DNA from: a virus
Virus record (IMG/VR): IMGVR_UViG_3300021057_000004
Coordinates: 1-49,320 of that record
Reading direction: 5' to 3' (one strand)
Length of the DNA stretch: 49,320 bases
Shown in pieces: positions 6,555-49,320 of this stretch. A program made the position numbers and the translations under genes. The notes beneath the pieces are model-generated. The model saw only the letters and a program-made list of their open reading frames with translations. It made no database searches and had not been told where the DNA came from. Within the stretch, counting starts at the first letter, position 1. Each line of letters begins with the position of its first letter.

Positions 6555-7538
6555 CTACTCGTGCGGGGCGATTGGCGTGCCCTTAGAGCGGCGGTAGATC
6601 GTGGTGGTGGTTTCCTTCGTGTGCCCGAGCAGCTGCTGTGCTCGGCGGATATCGGGGAGATCCGACGCCGTCTTCGCCCGGATGTCGCGGAACTGCCAGT
6701 CTGCATCGCCGCGGGCTGCCCGGAATCTTGCGTTTAGCTGGGCATAGGTGAGCCGCTGGCCGTTCTCGGTGGCGATGACATAGATGCTCTTGATGCGCCT
6801 CGGACGGGCTAGGGCGCGTTCCAGAACGGTCTTCAGGCGGCGCTGGATAAGGATGGGGACCTTGGCGCCGGTCTTCTCCTGGACGATCAGCAACGTGCCT
6901 TCCCGCATGTCCTGGCGTGTCATCTTGAGCAGATCCCCGGGACGCTGGCCGGTGAGGTAGGCGAGCTCCATAGCGTCTTGGAGGATTGGGTCTGCCCTTG
7001 CCAGCACTTCCTCGAACTCGGCGTCTGTGACGTACCGATCGCGCTTACCGAGTTTCCCTATGACCTTCTTCTCGGCCTGACTGAACTTGATGCCGGCGCA
7101 CGGATTCAGGGCTGTGGTCAGGCCTTCCTCACGCGCCCAATTCCACATCGCCGAAAGGATCCGCTTCTCGAAGATCGCCGCCCCTTTCTTGCTGCGGCGC
7201 CGGATGTACTGCTTCACGTGCTTGGGCTCGATCTGCTCCAGGCGCCCCTTCCCGAAGGCTTGCCGCAGGTTGCGCAGGGCGATCTCGTAGTGGCGCTTCG
7301 AGCTAAGGGAGAACGGCTGCTCGTTGACGTACTTCTCGTAGGCGTCCGATACGGGGATGAAGCCGGAACCGATAGACCCGGCTTCGAGCACGGCCCAGCG
7401 GCGCAATGCCTCGGCTTTGTCGCTCCCCAGCGGCGTCTTCTTCCCCGCCGCCTGGTGGTAGTAGTAGACCTTCTGCCCGGAAACCCGGCCCGTCATGTGG
7501 GGCGGTAAGTCCGGGAATCGGCCCTTCGGCCTCCCCAT
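6555..7538 (-). CDS. int: Tyrosine recombinase integrase
   Basis: 327 residues from ATG 7538; an in-frame TTG at 7565 would overlap the upstream gene by 23 bp. The N-terminus (MGRPKGRFPDLPPHM) resembles the start of arm-binding domains of phage integrases. A core-binding SAM-like domain follows, then the catalytic domain: Arg in TGQRPGD, Lys in EKTGAK, QLLGHTKE with the second conserved His, and Tyr in TTTIYRRS. The usual HxxR box reads FRDIRAKTAS, with the first His replaced by Arg. It is the last gene of the long leftward operon and abuts the inverted-motif cluster, fitting an int gene beside attP. Confidence 0.92.
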   Translation of the reverse strand: MGRPKGRFPDLPPHMTGRVSGQKVYYYHQAAGKKTPLGSDKAEALRRWAVLEAGSIGSGFIPVSDAYEKYVNEQPFSLSSKRHYEIALRNLRQAFGKGRLEQIEPKHVKQYIRRRSKKGAAIFEKRILSAMWNWAREEGLTTALNPCAGIKFSQAEKKVIGKLGKRDRYVTDAEFEEVLARADPILQDAMELAYLTGQRPGDLLKMTRQDMREGTLLIVQEKTGAKVPILIQRRLKTVLERALARPRRIKSIYVIATENGQRLTYAQLNARFRAARGDADWQFRDIRAKTASDLPDIRRAQQLLGHTKETTTTIYRRSKGTPIAPHE

Positions 7539-7542
7539 GCCG

Positions 7543-7728
7543 CTATCGTACAGGTCCGAGCTCAAATTCCGGTAGTGGCTTTTCGACCAGGTTACGACTC
7601 ACGACGAGCTCACCGCGGGCATTCTTGCGGTAGGGAATGCTCTGTCGGCGCAGTTCCTCCTCCTGCTTCGCACGGCGGACGTATCCCGTCAGCCGGCGAA
7701 GATCCTCCTCGGTGAGAAACTCGCTCAT
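7543..7728 (-). CDS. DUF4224-type small protein upstream of integrase, excisionase-like
   Basis: Sixty-one residues. The N-terminus MSEFLTEEDLRRLTGYVRR and the SIPYRKNARGELVVSR segment match the DUF4224 pattern of short winged-HTH-like proteins encoded just before phage integrases. The stop is 4 bp from the integrase ATG, so the two are translated together. By position it is a candidate recombination directionality factor. Longer frames reaching upstream are not needed. Confidence 0.8.
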   Translation of the reverse strand: MSEFLTEEDLRRLTGYVRRAKQEEELRRQSIPYRKNARGELVVSRNLVEKPLPEFELGPVR

Positions 7729-9628: not shown

Positions 9629-9841
9629 TCATGGCTCGATTTCCTCTCTCTTGACCGGAATCCACATAACCGCGTCTTTCATCGGCCAAGTGCGGCGGCG
9701 AATATTCCACGAGCGAGACAAGATTCCGTTGATTACTCGAACTTCGCCGTCTCGAACGCCGTTCTCGTAGCTGCGCCAGCCGTTTTCGTACATGAAGCTT
9801 TCGCGCTCGTAGAAATCGTTGAGGATTGTCTTGGTGCTCAT
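9629..9841 (-). CDS. Hypothetical acidic protein (70 aa)
   Basis: ATG 9841 follows AAGGAGA and overlaps the stop of the transporter gene (ATGA). It contains repeated aromatic/charged segments (YERESFMYENGWRSYENG) and a C-terminal WPMKDAVMWIPVKREE. The overlapping 108-aa Arg-rich frame in another phase is a shadow. It is the gene directly after the 7-deazaguanine cassette. Confidence 0.65.
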   Translation of the reverse strand: MSTKTILNDFYERESFMYENGWRSYENGVRDGEVRVINGILSRSWNIRRRTWPMKDAVMWIPVKREEIEP

Positions 9842-10335
9842 TTGTTCTCCTTATTCGCCGTGCTAGGAACGAAGCCCCGAAGCACCATCGACCAAATCGC
9901 CCCACCACCGACCTTGGCAGCAAACTGCATGGCGACGATGTGCGGCAGCAGGGCTCCGAAAGCGAGGGTCGGAAAGATCAGGCTGTCCACCGCTGCCCCG
10001 ACGACGTTCGACCCGTTTGCCCTGACGAGCCACGGACGGTTACGGAGGTACGAGTAGGCCAGCCAGTCGGCCAGTGCGGAGGCCGTAAAGGCGGTAGCGG
10101 AGGCAATGGCGATCTTCGCAGCTGCCGGATTCAGGCCCCAGGTAATCGCCCCGCCGGCCAGCACCACGGCGAGCATCTGCCAGCGTGTGAGCTTGTCGTG
10201 CATCACGTCCCGCAGGGTCAGATCCAGACCGATCAGGCAGAAGGCGATAAACGGAGAGGCCCAAGGCCCGAGCCACCATACGAGCAGGTTTGCCGCCACC
10301 ATCGCGGCGATGTAGAGGCCGATCAGCATTCGCAT
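9838..10335 (-). CDS. VUT/YhhQ-family transporter, probable 7-deazaguanine precursor importer
   Basis: 165 residues with five or six hydrophobic segments and the VUT-family layout. Conserved features include GLDLTLRDVMHDKLT after the second segment, ALADWLAYSYLRNRPW and the hallmark SNVVGAAVDSLIF near the C-terminus. The family includes E. coli YhhQ, which imports preQ0 and preQ1 for queuosine synthesis. ATG 10335 overlaps the upstream gene and has GGGAG about 13 bases before it. It lies two genes after a TGT/DpdA-like enzyme, so I infer that it feeds free 7-deazaguanine bases to that enzyme. A general role in host queuosine salvage is the alternative. Confidence 0.8.
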   Translation of the reverse strand: MRMLIGLYIAAMVAANLLVWWLGPWASPFIAFCLIGLDLTLRDVMHDKLTRWQMLAVVLAGGAITWGLNPAAAKIAIASATAFTASALADWLAYSYLRNRPWLVRANGSNVVGAAVDSLIFPTLAFGALLPHIVAMQFAAKVGGGAIWSMVLRGFVPSTANKENK

Positions 10336-10568
10336 ACGGTTTTTACTCCCGAGTGGTAGCCCGTCGTTGTGACCTTCGCGCCGAGCGTGCGGGCAAGCTC
10401 CTGCGTTAGTTCTTCCTGAAATACCTTGCGGTCCCTCAACTGCTGCACGGCGGCGAGGATGTCTTCCACCTTGACTACGCGGACGCATTCCACAACTGCC
10501 TCGTAATGGTCTGGCTTCCCGTCCACGGGGCAGGATGCGGTGATGGTGAGGCTATGCCTGACTAGCAA
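10323..10568 (-). CDS. Small QueF-like/T-fold protein of the 7-deazaguanine cassette
   Basis: 81 residues from TTG 10568, supported by AGGAG seven bases upstream; no ATG or suitable GTG is in frame. Residues 13-20 read CPVDGKPD, with the same spacing of Cys and Asp as the CPxTGQPD active-site signature of QueF nitrile reductases, and FQEE (50-53) falls where QueF has FHED. The protein is half the length of a QueF, so it may be a minimal T-fold unit acting as an oligomer. QueF reduces preQ0 to preQ1. Another T-fold reaction on a pterin-like or deazapurine substrate is possible. Its genetic neighbours support a deazaguanine role. Confidence 0.45.
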   Translation of the reverse strand: MLVRHSLTITASCPVDGKPDHYEAVVECVRVVKVEDILAAVQQLRDRKVFQEELTQELARTLGAKVTTTGYHSGVKTVCEC

Positions 10569-11157
10569 AGAGCTTCTCCTGGGTGTCTCGCTTGCTGATG
10601 GCTTTCCTCATGTGGCTGTAGCGGGAAAGACCTGTTCCGTCGATGGAGTCAGCCCCCATCTCCTCGAAGTATTCAAAACGGGACGGATCGTTGACCCTTC
10701 CGACGTGCGCCCACTTCCCTAAAACCTTGGCGGCCTTGACCACGGCAGCTGCATCCTTGGATAGCTTGAACTCCGTGGACCCGCCGATGAATACCGCGTC
10801 GATCTCTTCCCACGGAATCGGCAGATCCCCCTGACCGTCCTGAATGGCGAGGGCGAGCTTCCAACCCTGAAGTCGTCCCTTCCACCGCTCGAAGACCTCC
10901 AGCGTCCTGCGGGCTGACCCCACGATGTCAGGGACGGTGACGAAGATGCAGTTTTCCTTGTGATGAGACTCACGCTCCAGGAGGGCCAGAAACGCCTTCT
11001 CCTCGAAGCGAGCAAACGCCCCGTTGTCGATAGCCCACGGCCTCTCAGGCTCACGCAGGCGGTATCGAGTCAGCGGGGTTAGCAACGTCCCCACCTCGCA
11101 GCCAAGCTCTGCGGCGCAGGTGTTCAGGTCGTGGCTGGTATCAAGCAAGACTAGCAA
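10552..11157 (-). CDS. DpdA/TGT-like DNA guanine transglycosylase
   Basis: 201 residues. Several segments align with tRNA-guanine transglycosylases and phage DpdA proteins: AIDNGAF (42-48), VPDIVG (75-80), LAIQDGQ (103-109, like the VQGG loop), FIGGSTEFK (123-131, like the GG substrate loop), HVGRVN (151-156) and GADSIDGT (168-175), where Asp173 corresponds to the nucleophile in TGT's GVDMFDC. There is no C-terminal zinc site, as in short phage DpdA forms. DpdA enzymes swap guanine in DNA for 7-deazaguanine derivatives, blocking restriction. TTG 11157 overlaps the previous gene by 17 bp; no ATG lies nearby. Confidence 0.75.
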   Translation of the reverse strand: MLVLLDTSHDLNTCAAELGCEVGTLLTPLTRYRLREPERPWAIDNGAFARFEEKAFLALLERESHHKENCIFVTVPDIVGSARRTLEVFERWKGRLQGWKLALAIQDGQGDLPIPWEEIDAVFIGGSTEFKLSKDAAAVVKAAKVLGKWAHVGRVNDPSRFEYFEEMGADSIDGTGLSRYSHMRKAISKRDTQEKLFASQA

Positions 11158-11515
11158 TGGCCTCGTCCAGCGACTTGTGTACTTCGTGGGAGTGGTACAT
11201 CAGCCACGGGGAAAGAGGCTTGCCGGACTTGTCCACGAGAACGATCCGCTTCCCCATGCCGTGCGCCATGTAGACCTCCATGCTGGTTCCTACGCTCGGC
11301 TTGTCGTAGAAGACGAGCAAGGCGTCCGACTGTTGGATGTCTAGCTTGTCGTTCTCGACAATCTCCTTCGCGATTCCCGGCTCCAGCTCGCGGCCACGGT
11401 AGTCCCGGTCCATCGGGTCAAGGGTGTCGGGGAGCCTTTCCTTGGCGTACTCACGCCAGCCCTTGCAGTCGTCGTCGGATCGCCCGTTGATCGGGCCGCA
11501 CAGATAGACCTTCAT
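11141..11515 (-). CDS. Nucleoside 2-deoxyribosyltransferase-like protein
   Basis: 124 residues. MKVYLCGPINGRSDDD is the N-terminal nucleotide-binding signature of the superfamily that includes nucleoside 2-deoxyribosyltransferases and DNPH1/Rcl deoxynucleotide N-hydrolases. DPMDRDYRG and ENDKLDIQQSDALLVF follow, then SVGTSMEVYMAHGMGK with the conserved Glu, then a short SPWLMYHSHE tail. Members cleave or transfer the base of 2'-deoxynucleosides. It overlaps the DpdA-like gene by 17 bp, so a link to modified or free deoxyguanine metabolism is plausible but not shown. Confidence 0.75.
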   Translation of the reverse strand: MKVYLCGPINGRSDDDCKGWREYAKERLPDTLDPMDRDYRGRELEPGIAKEIVENDKLDIQQSDALLVFYDKPSVGTSMEVYMAHGMGKRIVLVDKSGKPLSPWLMYHSHEVHKSLDEAIASLA

Positions 11516-21088: not shown

Positions 21089-22524
21089 CCGCCCGCGACG
21101 ACGTCATCCTGAGGGAACCGCCGCATTCGATGGAGGCCGAGCAGTCGCTCCTCGGGGCGCTGCTGCTCGACAACCAAGCTTGGGAGAGAGTCGCAGACGT
21201 CGTGACGTCCCGGGACTTCTACAAGGGCAACCATCGGGTGATCTACGAGCACATCGAGCTCGTGCTCGCCGCGGACCAGCCAGCCGACGTCGTGACCGTA
21301 GCGCAATCCATGCAGGAGGCCGGAGTCCTAGAACGCTCTGGCGGGCCGGCGTACTTGGGCTCCATTGCTCAAAACACTCCCAGCGCCTTGAACGTGCGGC
21401 GCTATGCAGCGCTCGTCAGAGAGAAGGCGATCCAGCGCAACCTCGTGCGCGTGGGCAGCGAAATCGTCGAACGTGCTCTGCAACCCGGGGTGCAGTCGAT
21501 CGACGAATTGCTGGAGGAGGCCGAGCGCAAACTGTTCGAGCTCAGGCAGAGGCGCATCGTTCGGGAGCCGCGGCAGTTCAAGCAGGTGCTTGCGAAGGTA
21601 TTCGAGCAGATCGACCACCGCTATCACTCCGACAATCGGACGATCACCGGCATCGCCACTGGCTTCACGAAGCTCGACGAAATGACTGCCGGACTGCAGG
21701 ACGGGGACCTCGTGGTCATCGCCGGCAGGCCTTCGATGGGGAAAACGGCAATCGCCATGAACATTGCCGAGCATGTGGCGATCTACGCCAAGCGCCCGGT
21801 CGCCATCTTCTCGATAGAAATGTCCGACGAGCAGCTTGCGCAACGCCTGCTCGGGTCCGTGGGGCGCGTCGACCAGCACAAGCTGCGCACCGGGCAGCTT
21901 ACGGACCCCGACTGGAGCAAGCTCGGCGAGGCGATGGAGAAGCTGCACCAGGCGCCCTTCCTTGTCGAAGAGTCGACGTCGCTGTCGATCATCGAATTGC
22001 GTGCGAGGGCGAGGCGGCTTGCGCGCGAAAACCCAGGCATGGCGCTCATCGTCATCGACTACCTGCAGTTGATGGCATCCCAGGCGAAGACGCAGAGCGA
22101 GCGCACGCAGGAGATCGGGGACATCTCACGCGGACTCAAGGCGCTCGCCAAGGAATTGCGCATTCCGGTCGTGGCGCTATCCCAGCTTAACCGCGGGGTA
22201 GAGCAGCGCATGAACAAGCGGCCGATGATGTCCGACCTTAAGGACTCTGGCTCCATCGAGCAGGACGCGGACCTCGTCGTGATGATGTACCGCGACGACT
22301 ACTACCACGAGAACTCATCGGCTGCCGGCTATGCCGAAGCGATTGTCGGCAAGCAGCGCAACGGCGCCACCGGCACGGTGCACCTTCGGTTTGTGAAGGA
22401 AGAAACCCGGTTTGAGGACACCGACTGGAGACCGCCGAAAAAGGAGCGCAAGTCGAAGAAGGGTTTCGTCGCCCGGATGGAGAAGGACGCGACCGGGCGA
22501 TCCACTGAGGAGAACGACGAATGA
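21085..22524 (+). CDS. dnaB: Replicative DNA helicase, DnaB family
   Basis: 479 residues, full length for DnaB. The N-terminal domain (PPHSMEAEQSLLGALLLD) binds primase or initiator. The RecA-like motor carries Walker A GRPSMGKTA (about 215), the H1a acidic pair in FSIEMSDEQ, Walker B LIVIDYLQLM (about 323), the DnaB-specific ALSQLNRGVEQR and LKDSGSIEQDADLV. GTG start overlaps the initiator stop. It unwinds the phage origin after loading by the O-like protein. The lysine-rich tail after residue 450 is not part of the core fold. Confidence 0.95.
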   Translation: MTARDDVILREPPHSMEAEQSLLGALLLDNQAWERVADVVTSRDFYKGNHRVIYEHIELVLAADQPADVVTVAQSMQEAGVLERSGGPAYLGSIAQNTPSALNVRRYAALVREKAIQRNLVRVGSEIVERALQPGVQSIDELLEEAERKLFELRQRRIVREPRQFKQVLAKVFEQIDHRYHSDNRTITGIATGFTKLDEMTAGLQDGDLVVIAGRPSMGKTAIAMNIAEHVAIYAKRPVAIFSIEMSDEQLAQRLLGSVGRVDQHKLRTGQLTDPDWSKLGEAMEKLHQAPFLVEESTSLSIIELRARARRLARENPGMALIVIDYLQLMASQAKTQSERTQEIGDISRGLKALAKELRIPVVALSQLNRGVEQRMNKRPMMSDLKDSGSIEQDADLVVMMYRDDYYHENSSAAGYAEAIVGKQRNGATGTVHLRFVKEETRFEDTDWRPPKKERKSKKGFVARMEKDATGRSTEENDE

Positions 22525-23459
22525 GGAACGTATCGGTACTGCAGCAACGCAGCGAAAGCAACACGCTCAAGGACATCATCTACCGGCACATCCGGGAAGT
22601 GAACATGAGCCGCATCATGGGCCACAGCCAGTTCTACACCCTGCGCTCAATGGCCGAGTCGAAGTTCGGGCAAATCTGGCTCCCGAACCTGCAGGCGAAC
22701 GACATCGTCGAATACGCCAAGCATCGCAAGGAAGTCGACGGCATCAAGCCGCAGACGTTCATGCAGGACTTCACGTTCCTGCACTGCGCCTTGGAGAACA
22801 CGCGTCTGTGGAAGTCCGAGGGCAGCGACCGCTGGGAAGCGGAGTTGGAGGAGGCGAAGCTGTGGCTGGAGAAGCTCAACCTCATCGGCAAGTCGCGCCC
22901 GAGAACCCGGCGCCCCACTGAGGTAGAGATCGACAGGCTGCTCGCCTACTTCGCCGAGCAGAACGAGCATCCCAGGACGGACTGCGACATGGTGGTGATG
23001 GTCAAGTTCGCCATCGCGTCGTGCCGCAGGCAGTCTGAGATCACGCGCATCAAGTGGGAAGACCTGGACTACGACAAGAAGATGTATTGGGTCCGCGACG
23101 TCAAGGACCCGAAGATGAAGAAGGGCAACGACATCTTCTTCCCGGCTCTGGGCGATGCGTGGGCGCTGATGATGGCGCAGGAGATGACCTCCGAGTTCGT
23201 CTTCCCCTACAACGCGAAGACGGCGAGCGCCAGGTTCACGCAGGCAAAGCACAAGCTCAACATCGAAAACCTGCGCTTCCACGACCTGCGCAGGGAAGGG
23301 GCAACGCGGCTGCTGGAAGCCGGCTACAGCCCTGCCGAGGTGCGGCTCGTGACCGGCCACAAGACGACCGCAATTCTCGACCGCGTGTACTCGGCGCCAA
23401 ACCCGGAGCTACTGCACCAGGGGCCGGCAGCGGTGAGGAGCCTACGTGCTTCCGCCTGA
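22521..23459 (+). CDS. Second tyrosine recombinase (312 aa)
   Basis: ATG overlaps the helicase stop (ATGA). The catalytic set is complete: Arg in CRRQSEITRI, Lys in the beta hairpin VKDPKMKKGND, HDLRREGATRLLE (HxxR), VTGHKTT (second His) and Tyr in DRVYSAPN. The N-terminal core-binding domain (IMGHSQFYTLRSMAESKFGQ) is present but no arm-binding domain. Sitting in the early replication operon, away from attP, it is more likely to resolve multimers, act on another site or help packaging substrates than to be the integrase. It is clearly different from the 6555-7538 protein. Confidence 0.88.
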   Translation: MRNVSVLQQRSESNTLKDIIYRHIREVNMSRIMGHSQFYTLRSMAESKFGQIWLPNLQANDIVEYAKHRKEVDGIKPQTFMQDFTFLHCALENTRLWKSEGSDRWEAELEEAKLWLEKLNLIGKSRPRTRRPTEVEIDRLLAYFAEQNEHPRTDCDMVVMVKFAIASCRRQSEITRIKWEDLDYDKKMYWVRDVKDPKMKKGNDIFFPALGDAWALMMAQEMTSEFVFPYNAKTASARFTQAKHKLNIENLRFHDLRREGATRLLEAGYSPAEVRLVTGHKTTAILDRVYSAPNPELLHQGPAAVRSLRASA

Positions 23460-33206: not shown

Positions 33207-35553
33207 CCTCATGAAGCGAGAAAGACCTCGAATCAGTTCGATCAGCGTCGACAGGGGAAAGATCGTAGAACGCATCAAGCGGTTCTATCAGGACGACAAC
33301 ACGAACCGCTCGCAGGACATAGACGCGCGACTGCAGCGCTATGCGAAGTACCGCATGTGGACCGAGGGGCGAGACTGGCCTTGGGAGAACGCGACCGATG
33401 CGGCGATCCCGGACATGATGACCGCGTCGATGCGACTGCAGGACACGCTGCACAACGCTGTCATGTCGTCGCGCCCGTGCGTGATGGCGAAGGCGACCAA
33501 AAAACACGACGAGCCGAAAACGGAGGACGTGGACCATCTGATCGACTACCAAGTCTTCGTCGAGCAGCCAGGGGAAGAAATCATCGGCACGCTTGCGCAT
33601 GACTTCGTGAACGAAGGCGTCTACACCGCATACGTGCCGTGGGTGAAGGAGACACGCCAGGTCATCGACCTCTTCGCGATCGGCGCGTTGCCGGCCGAGG
33701 GCTACCCGGCGGACTTCTTCCGCATGTGGCTTGAGGGCAAGTTTCCGAAGGCCGATCTCGACCCCGGCAAGGATGGCTGGGATTGGGTCATCAAGGAAGG
33801 CAAGCAGAAGCACCGCGCGTCGTTCTTCACGCGGGACGACGGCGAGGTCGAGGTGGAGATCGAGCGCGAAGCGGTTCGCTATGAAGGTCCGCGGATCATT
33901 CCGAAGGACTACCAGGATGTCGGGCATCCGGCGCGTTGCGAAAACCTGCAGATCCCCGGGCCATCGAACCCGATGGGCGCCGCGCACGTGTGGTTGCGCG
34001 ATTTCCCCTCGATCGACGAGATCAAGCGCCTCGCCTCTGGGGACAAGCCCTTCTACGACCTGCTGACGCCGGAGGATCGCGAAAAGCTCGGCGTTGCGAA
34101 GATGGACGAGTCGTACCAGGAGCAGGCGCAGCAGAAGGACGTCATGCAGGGGCACCAGGAGCAGAAGTCGAAGGAAAAGGACGTACAGAGCCACGAGACG
34201 CTGACGCGGCTCATGGTCTTCGACTGCTACGACGTGGACAAGGACGGCAAGGACGAGGACGTCATCTGGTGGTACATCGTCGAAACCGAGACGCTGCTGC
34301 GTGCGCGCTATCTCACGCAGATGTTCCCGGCCGAAACCCCGACGCGGCCGTTCGCGGAAGCGCATCTCTTCCCGGTTCCAGGGCGCAGGGCGTCGATCGG
34401 ATTGCTGGAGATGATGGAGGGGCTGCACGACCTGTCGAAGATGTTCTTCGACCTCATGGGCGATTCGGGGACGATGTCGACAACGCCGTTCGGCTTCTAC
34501 CGTGCGACCTCGAACATGCGCCCGGAGGTGATTCGGATGTGGCCCGGCGAGATGTACCCGCTGAACGACCCGCAGAAGGATGTCAGTTTCCCGAGCATCG
34601 GGAACCAGAACCAGGCCTTCGGCTTCAACATGGTCACGCTGCTGCAGCAAATGGAGGAGCGCCTGACGACGATCGGCGAGCTCCAGCTGGGGCGCGTGCC
34701 GCAGGGGAAGGCCTCGGCACTTCGTACCGTGAGCGGGATGCAGACCGTGCTAGCACAGGGCGACGCGCGGCCCGAGCGTGTGCTTCGCCGGTTCTTCATC
34801 GGTCTCACGCAAATCTGGCGCCTCGTCCACAACCACAACCAGGCATTCCTGCCGAAAGGAAAGCAGTTCCTCATCAACGGCTACAAGGATGCGGTGAACG
34901 ACCCGTACCGCTCGATCGAGGACCGGACGACCATTCAAGGCGCCTTCATGTTCGACTTCTCTGCGAACGCCCTGAACACCTCGAAGGAGGCGATGCAGCA
35001 GAACCTCGACCAGATCATCGCCATGTACGTCACGCCGCTCGCCATCCAGCTTGGCATCCTGCAGCCGGACGGCATGTTCCGCCTGTTCCGCGACAAGGGA
35101 AAGGCGCACGGCCTGGACCCCGACAGATACCTGACGCCTCCGACCGCTGGTGCCTTCACGCCGAAGATCCTCGTCGAGGACGCCATCGCAATGATGCTGG
35201 ACGGGCAGATGCCTGTCGGCGATCCGGCAGAAGGTGCGGCCCAGCACCTTGCGAAGCTGCAGGAGTTCACGCAGTCCGACGAGTTCGGGCTGGTCCCGGA
35301 GGAGTTCGTGCAGACGATATTCTTCCCGTACCTGCAGAAATTGGCCCAGCAGGCGGTGCTGGAGCAGCAGCAGGCGGCAATGCTCGCCGCGGCACAGCAG
35401 TTCGGGCAGCAAACCCAGAAGCCCGGCATGCCCGGTCCTGCCGGCGCCCCGCAACCCGGCGGTCAGGCCATGCCTGCGGTGCAGGGCGGTGAACTGCTCG
35501 ATGAGACCTTGCCCTCCGCTGGCGGTGGGGCAAATGCGATGGTGGCCGCTTGA
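33199..35553 (+). CDS. Portal protein (784 aa)
   Basis: Follows the terminases and is the only large acidic-basic mixed protein here. Segments such as WPWENATDAAIPDMMTASMR, GTLAHDFVNEGVYTAYVPW and the long C-terminal helix region (QKLAQQAVLEQQQAAMLAAA) match the layout of large podovirus-type portals: wing and stem domains with a Gln/Ala-rich C-terminus ending in a Gly/Pro-rich tail. It forms the dodecameric DNA entry ring. I use ATG 33199, which overlaps the previous gene by 8 bp, rather than an earlier in-frame start. The long antisense frame (33022-34650) and the long plus frame inside are shadows. Confidence 0.85.
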   Translation: MADLMKRERPRISSISVDRGKIVERIKRFYQDDNTNRSQDIDARLQRYAKYRMWTEGRDWPWENATDAAIPDMMTASMRLQDTLHNAVMSSRPCVMAKATKKHDEPKTEDVDHLIDYQVFVEQPGEEIIGTLAHDFVNEGVYTAYVPWVKETRQVIDLFAIGALPAEGYPADFFRMWLEGKFPKADLDPGKDGWDWVIKEGKQKHRASFFTRDDGEVEVEIEREAVRYEGPRIIPKDYQDVGHPARCENLQIPGPSNPMGAAHVWLRDFPSIDEIKRLASGDKPFYDLLTPEDREKLGVAKMDESYQEQAQQKDVMQGHQEQKSKEKDVQSHETLTRLMVFDCYDVDKDGKDEDVIWWYIVETETLLRARYLTQMFPAETPTRPFAEAHLFPVPGRRASIGLLEMMEGLHDLSKMFFDLMGDSGTMSTTPFGFYRATSNMRPEVIRMWPGEMYPLNDPQKDVSFPSIGNQNQAFGFNMVTLLQQMEERLTTIGELQLGRVPQGKASALRTVSGMQTVLAQGDARPERVLRRFFIGLTQIWRLVHNHNQAFLPKGKQFLINGYKDAVNDPYRSIEDRTTIQGAFMFDFSANALNTSKEAMQQNLDQIIAMYVTPLAIQLGILQPDGMFRLFRDKGKAHGLDPDRYLTPPTAGAFTPKILVEDAIAMMLDGQMPVGDPAEGAAQHLAKLQEFTQSDEFGLVPEEFVQTIFFPYLQKLAQQAVLEQQQAAMLAAAQQFGQQTQKPGMPGPAGAPQPGGQAMPAVQGGELLDETLPSAGGGANAMVAA

Positions 35554-36374
35554 AGGTCGTCGTCGTCGGCTGCGGAAAGATGGGCGAGCGCCACGCCAGA
35601 ACTCTGCACCGCATGGGCCTCGAAGTCGGGCTAGTGGACGTGGACCAAGTGCGGCTGGAGCGCCTTGCGACCGAGCTTGGCAACAGCCAAGGGCCGTTCC
35701 GGGCTGCCATTGTTGCCGTCCCTACCACGCAGCACTTCGATCTAGCCTACGGGCTGATTTCCAAGGGCATGCATGTACTGGTGGAGAAGCCGGTGGCTCA
35801 GTACGCGAGTGAAGCCATCGACCTGGTAGAGCGGGCGAGGTGGATGGGGACGGTGCTGCATGTCGGCCACATCGAGCGCTTCAATCCGGCGTTTCGTCGG
35901 CTCGCGGCTGCGGTGAAGGCGCCGGTGATCGCCGAGATCAGCCGGTGCTCGGTAGAGAACGGGCGGTGCCTAGACGTGCACGTGGTCCACGACCTCATGA
36001 TCCACGACCTAGACCTGCTGATCTCGATGCTGGGCATGCCGTTGTGGCAGAAAGCCAAAGGCTCCGCGGACGATGCTGAAGCGCATCTGCACTTCCCCTG
36101 CGGCAGCGATGCGTATCTGCGCGCAAGCCGTGTCCACGACGAGAACGTGCGAGAGTGGCACACCATCTACGTCGACTCACCGCATGCCGAGGACGGCTAC
36201 CTGCGGGCTGACCTCCTCGCCGAAAAGGCGCCATTGGAGGACGAACTGGCCCATTTCCTTGATGCGGTGCAACAGCGCCGTCTCGACTACGAAGGGGCCA
36301 TACAGGCCGCCGATTCAGTATTCCTGGCCGAGGACATCGTGCGCCAGGTTAGCCAAATCAGGATGGCCGCATGA
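35550..36374 (+). CDS. Gfo/Idh/MocA-family oxidoreductase, UDP-GlcNAc 3-dehydrogenase-like
   Basis: 274 residues from TTG 35550, overlapping the portal TGA. The NAD(P)-binding Rossmann motif is VVGCGKMGERHARTL (6-20), with EKP at 79-81, VGHIERFNPAFR at 105-116 and DVHVVHDLMIHDLDLL around 142-157. These match nucleotide-sugar 3-dehydrogenases of the GnnA/WlbA type, in which the EKP Lys and the C-terminal His act in catalysis. Such enzymes start the conversion of UDP-GlcNAc to 3-amino sugars. Position between portal and scaffold is unusual. A transferase and an acyltransferase of matching pathways lie 5-6 kb downstream. Confidence 0.85.
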   Translation: MKVVVVGCGKMGERHARTLHRMGLEVGLVDVDQVRLERLATELGNSQGPFRAAIVAVPTTQHFDLAYGLISKGMHVLVEKPVAQYASEAIDLVERARWMGTVLHVGHIERFNPAFRRLAAAVKAPVIAEISRCSVENGRCLDVHVVHDLMIHDLDLLISMLGMPLWQKAKGSADDAEAHLHFPCGSDAYLRASRVHDENVREWHTIYVDSPHAEDGYLRADLLAEKAPLEDELAHFLDAVQQRRLDYEGAIQAADSVFLAEDIVRQVSQIRMAA

Positions 36375-48966: not shown

Positions 48967-49320
48967 GCGGGCTAGTTGACTCTCTGTTCGGGGGTGGAGG
49001 AAGCACCACGAACGTCGTCACGTCTACGCCAGCACCTACCGCCGAAGAACAGGAGCTAATCAAGCTCAATACGGAGCTCGCGCGCAGGCAACTCGCGCAA
49101 CTGGACACGCTTGCCCCGTTCCAGAAAGAACTCCTAGACATCACTATCGCCGACCTGCGCAGGCAGGGTGCCGAGACGGCAGCGCTTAATGCCGCGATCA
49201 CGCCGGAGCAGCAGGCGGCCTTTGCGAAGTCCGAGTTTGATCGCGCGTCGCGTCTCGGGCCGATCCAAGAAGAACTGCTGCAGAAGCAGCTGGACCTCAT
49301 TCGCTCTGGCGGTGCGGCTA
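48963..49320 (+). CDS. Virion internal/ejection-type protein, 5' part (3' part at 1-693)
   Basis: ATG 48963 overlaps the preceding TGA. The start MSGLVDSLFGGGGSTTNVVT is followed by a helical Gln/Leu-rich region (EEQELIKLNTELARRQLAQL). The frame is open to the end of the window and, because 49194-49320 equals 1-127, continues without interruption to 693. See the entry at 1-693 for the whole 307-residue protein. Confidence 0.8.
   Translation, partial: MSGLVDSLFGGGGSTTNVVTSTPAPTAEEQELIKLNTELARRQLAQLDTLAPFQKELLDITIADLRRQGAETAALNAAITPEQQAAFAKSEFDRASRLGPIQEELLQKQLDLIRSGGAA
49194..49320. repeat. Right copy of 127-bp terminal direct repeat
   Basis: Identical to 1-127; see the left copy. Counting it once gives a 49,193-bp circle. 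Confidence 0.95.

Follow-up and report, generated by a model that had tools for sequence, protein, structure and literature searches.

Four overlapping genes on the minus strand of the viral record IMGVR_UViG_3300021057_000004, analysed over its whole length of 49,320 nucleotides (nt; the window), are best explained, in a reading held with modest confidence, as a salvage-type cassette for dG+ (2'-deoxyarchaeosine) in phage DNA. The first cassette gene (11141-11515) encodes a 124-amino acid (aa) protein of the nucleoside deoxyribosyltransferase (NDT) family PF05014. It is followed by genes for a small DpdA-like guanine transglycosylase, designated mini-DpdA (10552-11157, 201 aa, TTG start), a single-domain QueF-Like protein, designated mini-QueF-L (10323-10568, 81 aa, TTG start), and a VUT/YhhQ-type membrane transporter of the Vut_1 family (9838-10335, 165 aa), predicted to import preQ0 or another 7-deazapurine. 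Adjacent genes overlap by 13-17 nt (17 nt between the NDT and mini-DpdA genes), in agreement with the four overlapping leftward genes described in an earlier, sequence-only reading of this DNA.

In the proposed pathway, the transporter would import preQ0 (7-cyano-7-deazaguanine) or a related base, and mini-DpdA would exchange guanines in phage DNA for the imported base after replication, using the chemistry of tRNA-guanine transglycosylases (TGTs). Cys13 of mini-QueF-L would then form a thioimide with the nitrile of the DNA-inserted preQ0, and attack of ammonia on this intermediate would yield dG+ instead of dPreQ1. The NDT-family protein would probably feed the pool, either by cleaving the base off salvaged (deoxy)nucleosides or in another way. 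Modified guanines would shield phage DNA from host restriction enzymes.

Both ends of the 49.3-kb record consist of the same exact 127-nt direct repeat (positions 1-127 and 49194-49320), which indicates that the phage genome is probably complete and makes the absence of genes from it meaningful. No Pfam match to QueC, PTPS/QueD, or TGT was found anywhere in the genome, and local profiles for FolE, QueE, QueC, and QueD gave zero matches. The sequence-only reading had proposed a 7-deazaguanine cassette with an importer and a DpdA-like enzyme and without biosynthesis genes, a proposal now supported by the TGT fold, the profile match to phage DpdAs, and the gene neighbourhoods described below. Relative to the closest relative (L011), the ratio of nonsynonymous to synonymous substitution rates is low for the 81-aa (0.16), 201-aa (0.13), and transporter (0.09) genes, identifying all three as real genes rather than chance reading frames.

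Fold and active site of mini-QueF-L

The 81-aa protein contains the motif CPVDGKPD and matches no Pfam family, whereas the NCBIfam QueF-II model gives a weak match (E 0.0036; 17.2 bits vs a cut-off of 86.9). A structural model based on eleven relatives (pLDDT 93.5) displays the order strand-strand-helix-helix-strand-strand (bbaabb), which constitutes one complete T-fold. The protein is thus a full single-domain fold, and the earlier description of it as a half-size QueF is rejected. The sole match in a profile search of the PDB is the QueF-Like archaeosine synthase of Pyrobaculum calidifontis (E 1.4e-4). The 13 highest-ranking PDB folds also belong to this enzyme (TM-score 0.79-0.84), and GTP cyclohydrolase I comes next. 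Neither the 50 best fold matches nor the PDB profile matches include bacterial QueF.

The hallmarks of QueF are Cys55, Asp62, and Glu97, together with the NADPH-binding motif E(S/L)K(S/A)hK(L/Y)(Y/F/W) (PMC5372742). Among 45 distinct mini-QueF-L relatives, the thioimide-forming Cys13 is present in all, and the general acid Asp20 and the base-binding Glu52 are each present in 44. In contrast, the NADPH-binding motif occurs in none of the 45. It is found in the control QueFs of two phages with measured dPreQ1, Dp-1 and HVTV-1 (as ESKSLKLY and ELKSLKYY), and the comparison of the mini-QueF-L profile with these two proteins is insignificant. QueF-L enzymes, which act on preQ0 in nucleic acid, form the same thioimide and use ammonia to resolve it (PMC5485725). 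This chemistry and the missing motif make it more likely that the 81-aa protein amidinates its substrate to dG+ than that it reduces it to dPreQ1. Consequently, the QueF-type reduction of preQ0 to preQ1 suggested in the sequence-only reading is not upheld, as the motif is missing and the nearest solved relative is the ammonia-dependent QueF-Like enzyme.

An unlikely alternative, and the one that survives best, retains the salvage cassette and assigns to the small QueF an NADPH-dependent reduction of preQ0 to preQ1, so that the DNA carries dPreQ1. The T-fold and the catalytic Cys, Asp, and Glu are shared with QueF, the QueF-II match points in this direction, and phage proteins previously named QueF-L yielded dPreQ1 (PMC6884629). 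However, the motif distribution argues otherwise, since both phage QueFs with measured dPreQ1 have the motif that mini-QueF-L lacks, as do the missing bacterial QueF matches and the insignificant profile comparison. Slightly less probable still is a cassette that places a 7-deazaguanine in DNA but in which the small QueF gives the amide dADG or a carboxylate, or simply binds preQ0 or hands it over. Water could in principle resolve the thioimide, and the DpdA-only phages 7-11 and MED16 contain dADG (PMC6884629, PMC8306585). Nevertheless, among the known family members, QueF uses hydride and QueF-L ammonia to resolve this intermediate (PMC5485725), and 13 mini-QueF-L phages have no QueC of their own to supply ADG.

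The mini-DpdA family and its linkage to 7-deazaguanine genes

The 201-aa protein matches no Pfam family, and NCBIfam and PADLOC scans likewise gave nothing useful. Its PHROG family (E 1e-38) is one without an assigned function, and a tblastn search retrieved 24 phage records, several of which are annotated as 'DpdA-like tRNA-guanine transglycosylase'. Its AlphaFold2 model (pLDDT 94.6) was compared with the PDB using Foldseek, and ranks 1-9 are all TGTs (best E 1.4e-5; TM-score 0.52). A TGT-like fold for 10552-11157, the absence of which would have counted against the sequence-only reading, is therefore the best fold match of the model. The best viral fold match is a 499-aa protein of an uncultured marine virus (BFVD A0A0F7L9Z1; E 1.8e-11, TM-score 0.74), apparently a mini-DpdA domain fused to another part.

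Because profile searches of the PDB miss TGT, homology of mini-DpdA rests on profile-profile comparison and fold. When 63 mini-DpdA relatives are compared by hhalign with 11 phage DpdAs (Dp-1, the Rosebush-genus phage TA17A, PAJD-1, and HRTV-29 are among the sources), the probability is 94% and E is 1.1e-7, an improvement from E 0.0046 as relatives joined the profiles. The alignment pairs DNGAF with DSGAF, PD with LD, and an IGG turn. Across the 63 relatives, which extend down to 26% identity, P76, D77, Q106, F123, G125, G126, K131, H151, and D173 are invariant, and D44/N45 are nearly so. Residues D44, D77, Q106, G125-G126, and D173 presumably correspond to Asp102, Asp156, Gln203, Gly229-230, and Asp280 of Zymomonas TGT. 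Of these landmarks, D44, D77, and GG are aligned with DpdAs by hhalign, and that D173 matches the TGT nucleophile Asp280 is assumed from the GxDxxD motif only.

Genes of the 7-deazaguanine pathway are concentrated around mini-DpdA. In 60 of 88 viral mini-DpdA loci from IMG/VR, a QueC, QueD, QueE, VUT transporter, or small QueF gene lies within 1.5 kb, and 37 of 61 clusters keep such a neighbour after dereplication at 80% identity. Overall, 75 such genes occur in 295 kb near mini-DpdA, compared with 1 in 526 kb farther off.

The linkage is complete from the perspective of mini-QueF-L. A scan with this protein alone yielded 43 loci, 42 of which were assessable (L217 and L224 were judged by eye). 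A DpdA-type gene, either mini-DpdA or a type of ~228 aa, lies directly beside mini-QueF-L in all 42. Four tested ~228-aa proteins match the PHROG 'queuine tRNA-ribosyltransferase' with E-values from 7e-39 to 1e-58. When loci found by other routes are included, the DpdA-type neighbour is detected by profile in 47 of 50 and by eye in the remaining three. The interchange of two distinct DpdA types beside the same mini-QueF-L strongly supports the idea that mini-DpdA performs the function of DpdA, which would be the exchange of guanine in DNA. The same 50 loci contain a transporter in 19 cases, QueD or QueE in 8, and QueC in none. QueC was also absent from the entirety of 14 phage records, several of which are possibly fragments; 13 of these encode mini-QueF-L, and the remaining one, from Moorella phage MTATph1, was added because it has an NDT gene. 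The presence of mini-QueF-L in phages without QueC is a signature of salvage.

The linkage and active-site data also bear on the improbable alternative that these proteins serve tRNA or free-base metabolism, such as queuosine supply or tRNA repair, instead of DNA. TGT is a tRNA enzyme, and VUT/YhhQ proteins serve bacterial queuosine salvage, with YhhQ acting as a preQ0 transporter (PMC6884629). However, the CxCx2C...H zinc site of tRNA TGTs is absent from the 201-aa protein, which has just three cysteines, none so spaced. This absence argues against a tRNA TGT, as do the profile match to DNA-inserting DpdAs and the exchange of places with bona fide DpdAs beside mini-QueF-L. Moreover, mini-DpdA is present in bacterial contigs, and a search of 16 bacterial genomes bearing it gave no TGT match in 5 and no QueC in 4. 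In two of these genomes, a Microbacterium and a Nonomuraea, both are lacking, which argues against a role in tRNA queuosine. In the Microbacterium, the transporter adjoins mini-DpdA, which argues for import. Finally, it is very improbable that these are unrelated small phage genes adjoining by chance, with superficial DpdA and QueF resemblance, for although single-sequence matches are weak and small phage genes are often shuffled, this idea conflicts with the invariant linkage of mini-QueF-L to DpdA-type genes, the near/far contrast around mini-DpdA, purifying selection, and independent fold matches.

Several observations on these families concern individual loci. Sonali, phiG7, and Vibrio phage R29Z encode mini-DpdA together with a full-size DpdA. 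In Escherichia phage phiG7 (L003:5836-6482), the mini-DpdA relative consists of two overlapping reading frames (phiG7_20/21) despite the full DpdA, and the match in SHIN8 is likewise in two pieces; decay, frameshifting, and sequencing error are candidate causes. Degenerate or shortened QueD-like proteins adjoin mini-DpdA in four loci (L016:5619-6017, L017:2626-3021, L033:2798-3109, and L038:4521-4931). In the first of these, the KCxRLHGH region reads KQGVHRHNY, in which the catalytic Cys is gone and His is retained, suggesting a T-fold protein with a different function. PAPS-reductase-like genes, possibly unrelated, occur in three DpdA-type phages (L005:2562-3596, Aoka; L008:6343-7386, R6L; L190:7689-8507, HRTV-29). 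A large mini-DpdA group in Paraburkholderia, Caballeronia, and Nonomuraea genomes (L129-L175) has no recognised 7-deazaguanine neighbour. Cassette order is freely shuffled, and in L227-L229 and L234-L243 mini-QueF-L is paired with divergent mini-DpdA variants or QueE.

The transporter and the deoxyribosyltransferase-like gene

The transporter matches Pfam Vut_1 with E 4.5e-13 (50.3 bits vs a cut-off of 27.2). Its start is the ATG at 10335, and the longer stretch to 10488 is merely an open frame. A queuosine-precursor transporter model of NCBIfam gives E 6.4e-8, below its cut-off. The transporter adjoins mini-DpdA or mini-QueF-L in many relatives, and this linkage is the basis on which it is predicted to import a base of the preQ0/preQ1 type.

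The NDT-family protein matches PF05014 (Nuc_deoxyrib_tr) with E 7.8e-11 (42.6 bits vs a cut-off of 28.8) and has the GTSME motif with the expected Glu. Its relatives recur in pathway clusters, in line with the link to 7-deazaguanines that the sequence-only reading had drawn. The closest relative (L230, 72%) lies in a locus with the order DpdA, NDT, mini-QueF-L, and another (L231, 66%) in a locus with the same four parts in a different order, namely transporter, NDT, mini-QueF-L, DpdA. More distant relatives are found within the QueC-FolE-DpdA cluster of Edwardsiella phage ZHS (51%), overlapping a DpdA-type reading frame (L210, 40%), and between QueD and FolE inside the que cluster of Aminobacter phage Erebus (33%). 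For scale, 9g-type DpdA occurs in ~0.45% of phage records (227/50,697). An initial view of the NDT gene as an unrelated passenger, based on the lack of an NDT gene near the early relatives, was dropped given these contexts. However, the family is not restricted to the 7-deazaguanine pathway, because 15 relatives of ~46% identity (L195-L209) have no recognised 7-deazaguanine gene on their short contigs. It is plausible that the protein in the cassette frees or supplies the base.

Several points weigh against the dG+ salvage explanation. The fold match of mini-DpdA to TGTs is moderate, with other TIM barrels following at E ~3e-4. Mini-DpdA sequence profiles reach no TGT in Pfam or the PDB (38 and then 63 relatives for the PDB), and PF01702, the Pfam TGT family, gives no match at E up to 1-10. 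The hhalign match to DpdAs does not extend beyond the first half of the barrel. The transporter falls below the NCBIfam cut-offs (32.6 vs 50.95 and 21.6 vs 252 bits), which makes its substrate a guess. Lastly, the Dp-1 and HVTV-1 proteins were called QueF-L on the basis of HHpred closeness, yet these phages make dPreQ1 (PMC6884629); unlike mini-QueF-L, however, the two proteins do carry the NADPH motif.

Relation to known systems and genome context

DpdA-only phages and some phages with YhhQ have been described, with a host or exogenous source of the precursor suggested (Hutinet et al., 2019; PMC6884629), as have HRTV-29, with DpdA only, and YhhQ in HCTV-1 and HCTV-16 (PMC8651126). The DpdAs of the 9g, CAjan, and Rosebush type (PMC6884629) share with mini-DpdA a TGT-like fold and the DNGAF/DSGAF, PD, and GG landmarks, and both groups are phage-borne and linked to queC/D/E and transporters. 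In contrast, mini-DpdA has ~200 aa instead of 300-350 aa, is related to these DpdAs at the profile-profile level only, and has no Pfam TGT or NCBIfam match but its own PHROG family; actinophage members are annotated as 'DpdA-like' in GenBank.

For mini-QueF-L, the QueF-Like enzyme of P. calidifontis (5JYX/5K0P) is similar in having a single T-fold, a Cys-Asp spacing of 7, a base-binding Glu, and no QueF motif. The two share 26-27% identity and differ in length (81 vs 109 aa). Whereas the archaeal enzyme acts on tRNA, the expected substrate of the phage-borne protein is DNA. A phage QueF-L was predicted in 2020 for gp33 of Sphingomonas phage MMDA13, with dG+ as the product predicted by its authors (PMC7472734). 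This 98-aa protein (CPVNHLPD) also lacks the QueF motif and is encoded in a phage DNA-modification cluster, but its similarity to the mini-QueF-L profile is weak (E 0.045). Unlike the phage studied here, MMDA13 carries the whole FolE-QueD-QueE-QueC-DpdA set.

Other phages resemble the present one in cassette composition. In Streptococcus phage Dp-1, DpdA is likewise encoded next to QueT, a queuosine-precursor transporter, and to a protein of the QueF family, but this phage has a full biosynthesis set, a genuine QueF with the NADPH motif, and dPreQ1 as its product. Salmonella phage 7-11, Pantoea phage MED16, and Halorubrum virus HRTV-29 lack preQ0 synthesis genes and would use a host or imported precursor, but no QueF-L and no linked transporter are reported for them; HRTV-29 has an NDT-family gene elsewhere in its genome. 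The closest counterparts are Arthrobacter phage Aoka (gp38-gp40) and Rhizobium phage RHph_X2_30, in which a transporter, a mini-QueF-L-type protein annotated as 'hypothetical', and a DpdA-type protein are encoded by consecutive or nearly consecutive genes. Both lack the NDT gene, and RHph_X2_30 has the DpdA type of ~229 aa. Mycobacterium phage GreaseLightnin encodes a transporter and mini-DpdA, but no mini-QueF-L was found in it.

DpdA-only phages, phage-borne transporters, and one predicted phage QueF-L are therefore already published. What is new is the description of mini-DpdA as a family with linked pathway genes, of an ~80-aa mini-QueF-L family that is completely linked to DpdA and consistently missing from phages encoding QueC, and of the association with NDT genes. 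A 2023 paper reportedly named DpdA3 and DpdA4, and mini-DpdA may overlap a subfamily named there.

More broadly, it is possible, though we place it somewhat short of probable, that these phages represent a widespread, undescribed salvage branch, in which phages without preQ0 synthesis combine mini-DpdA or the ~228-aa DpdA with an ~80-aa QueF-L making dG+ in DNA, an importer, and sometimes a base-supplying NDT. If so, mini-QueF-L, editing a nitrile within DNA with just ~80 aa, would be the smallest enzyme of the QueF family and the first QueF-L to work on DNA. Phages could then protect their DNA with an imported base in hosts that lack a queuosine pathway. The modification status of DpdA-only phages has been called hard to predict (PMC6884629), and the proposed pathway offers concrete, testable chemistry for this large class. 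It also connects mini-QueF-L, a family annotated as hypothetical, with mini-DpdA, whose PHROG family has no assigned function. Because the cultured phage Aoka holds the three-gene core, the question is directly testable.

The remainder of the window encodes two tyrosine integrases, a replication initiation protein, and a DnaB-like helicase, and gives weak terminase and portal matches, on the basis of which the phage is probably a temperate tailed phage. The integrase genes lie at 6555-7565 and 22521-23459 on opposite strands. Directly downstream of the portal-like gene, positions 35550-36374 encode a Gfo/Idh/MocA-type NAD-binding oxidoreductase (Pfam E 6.8e-17).

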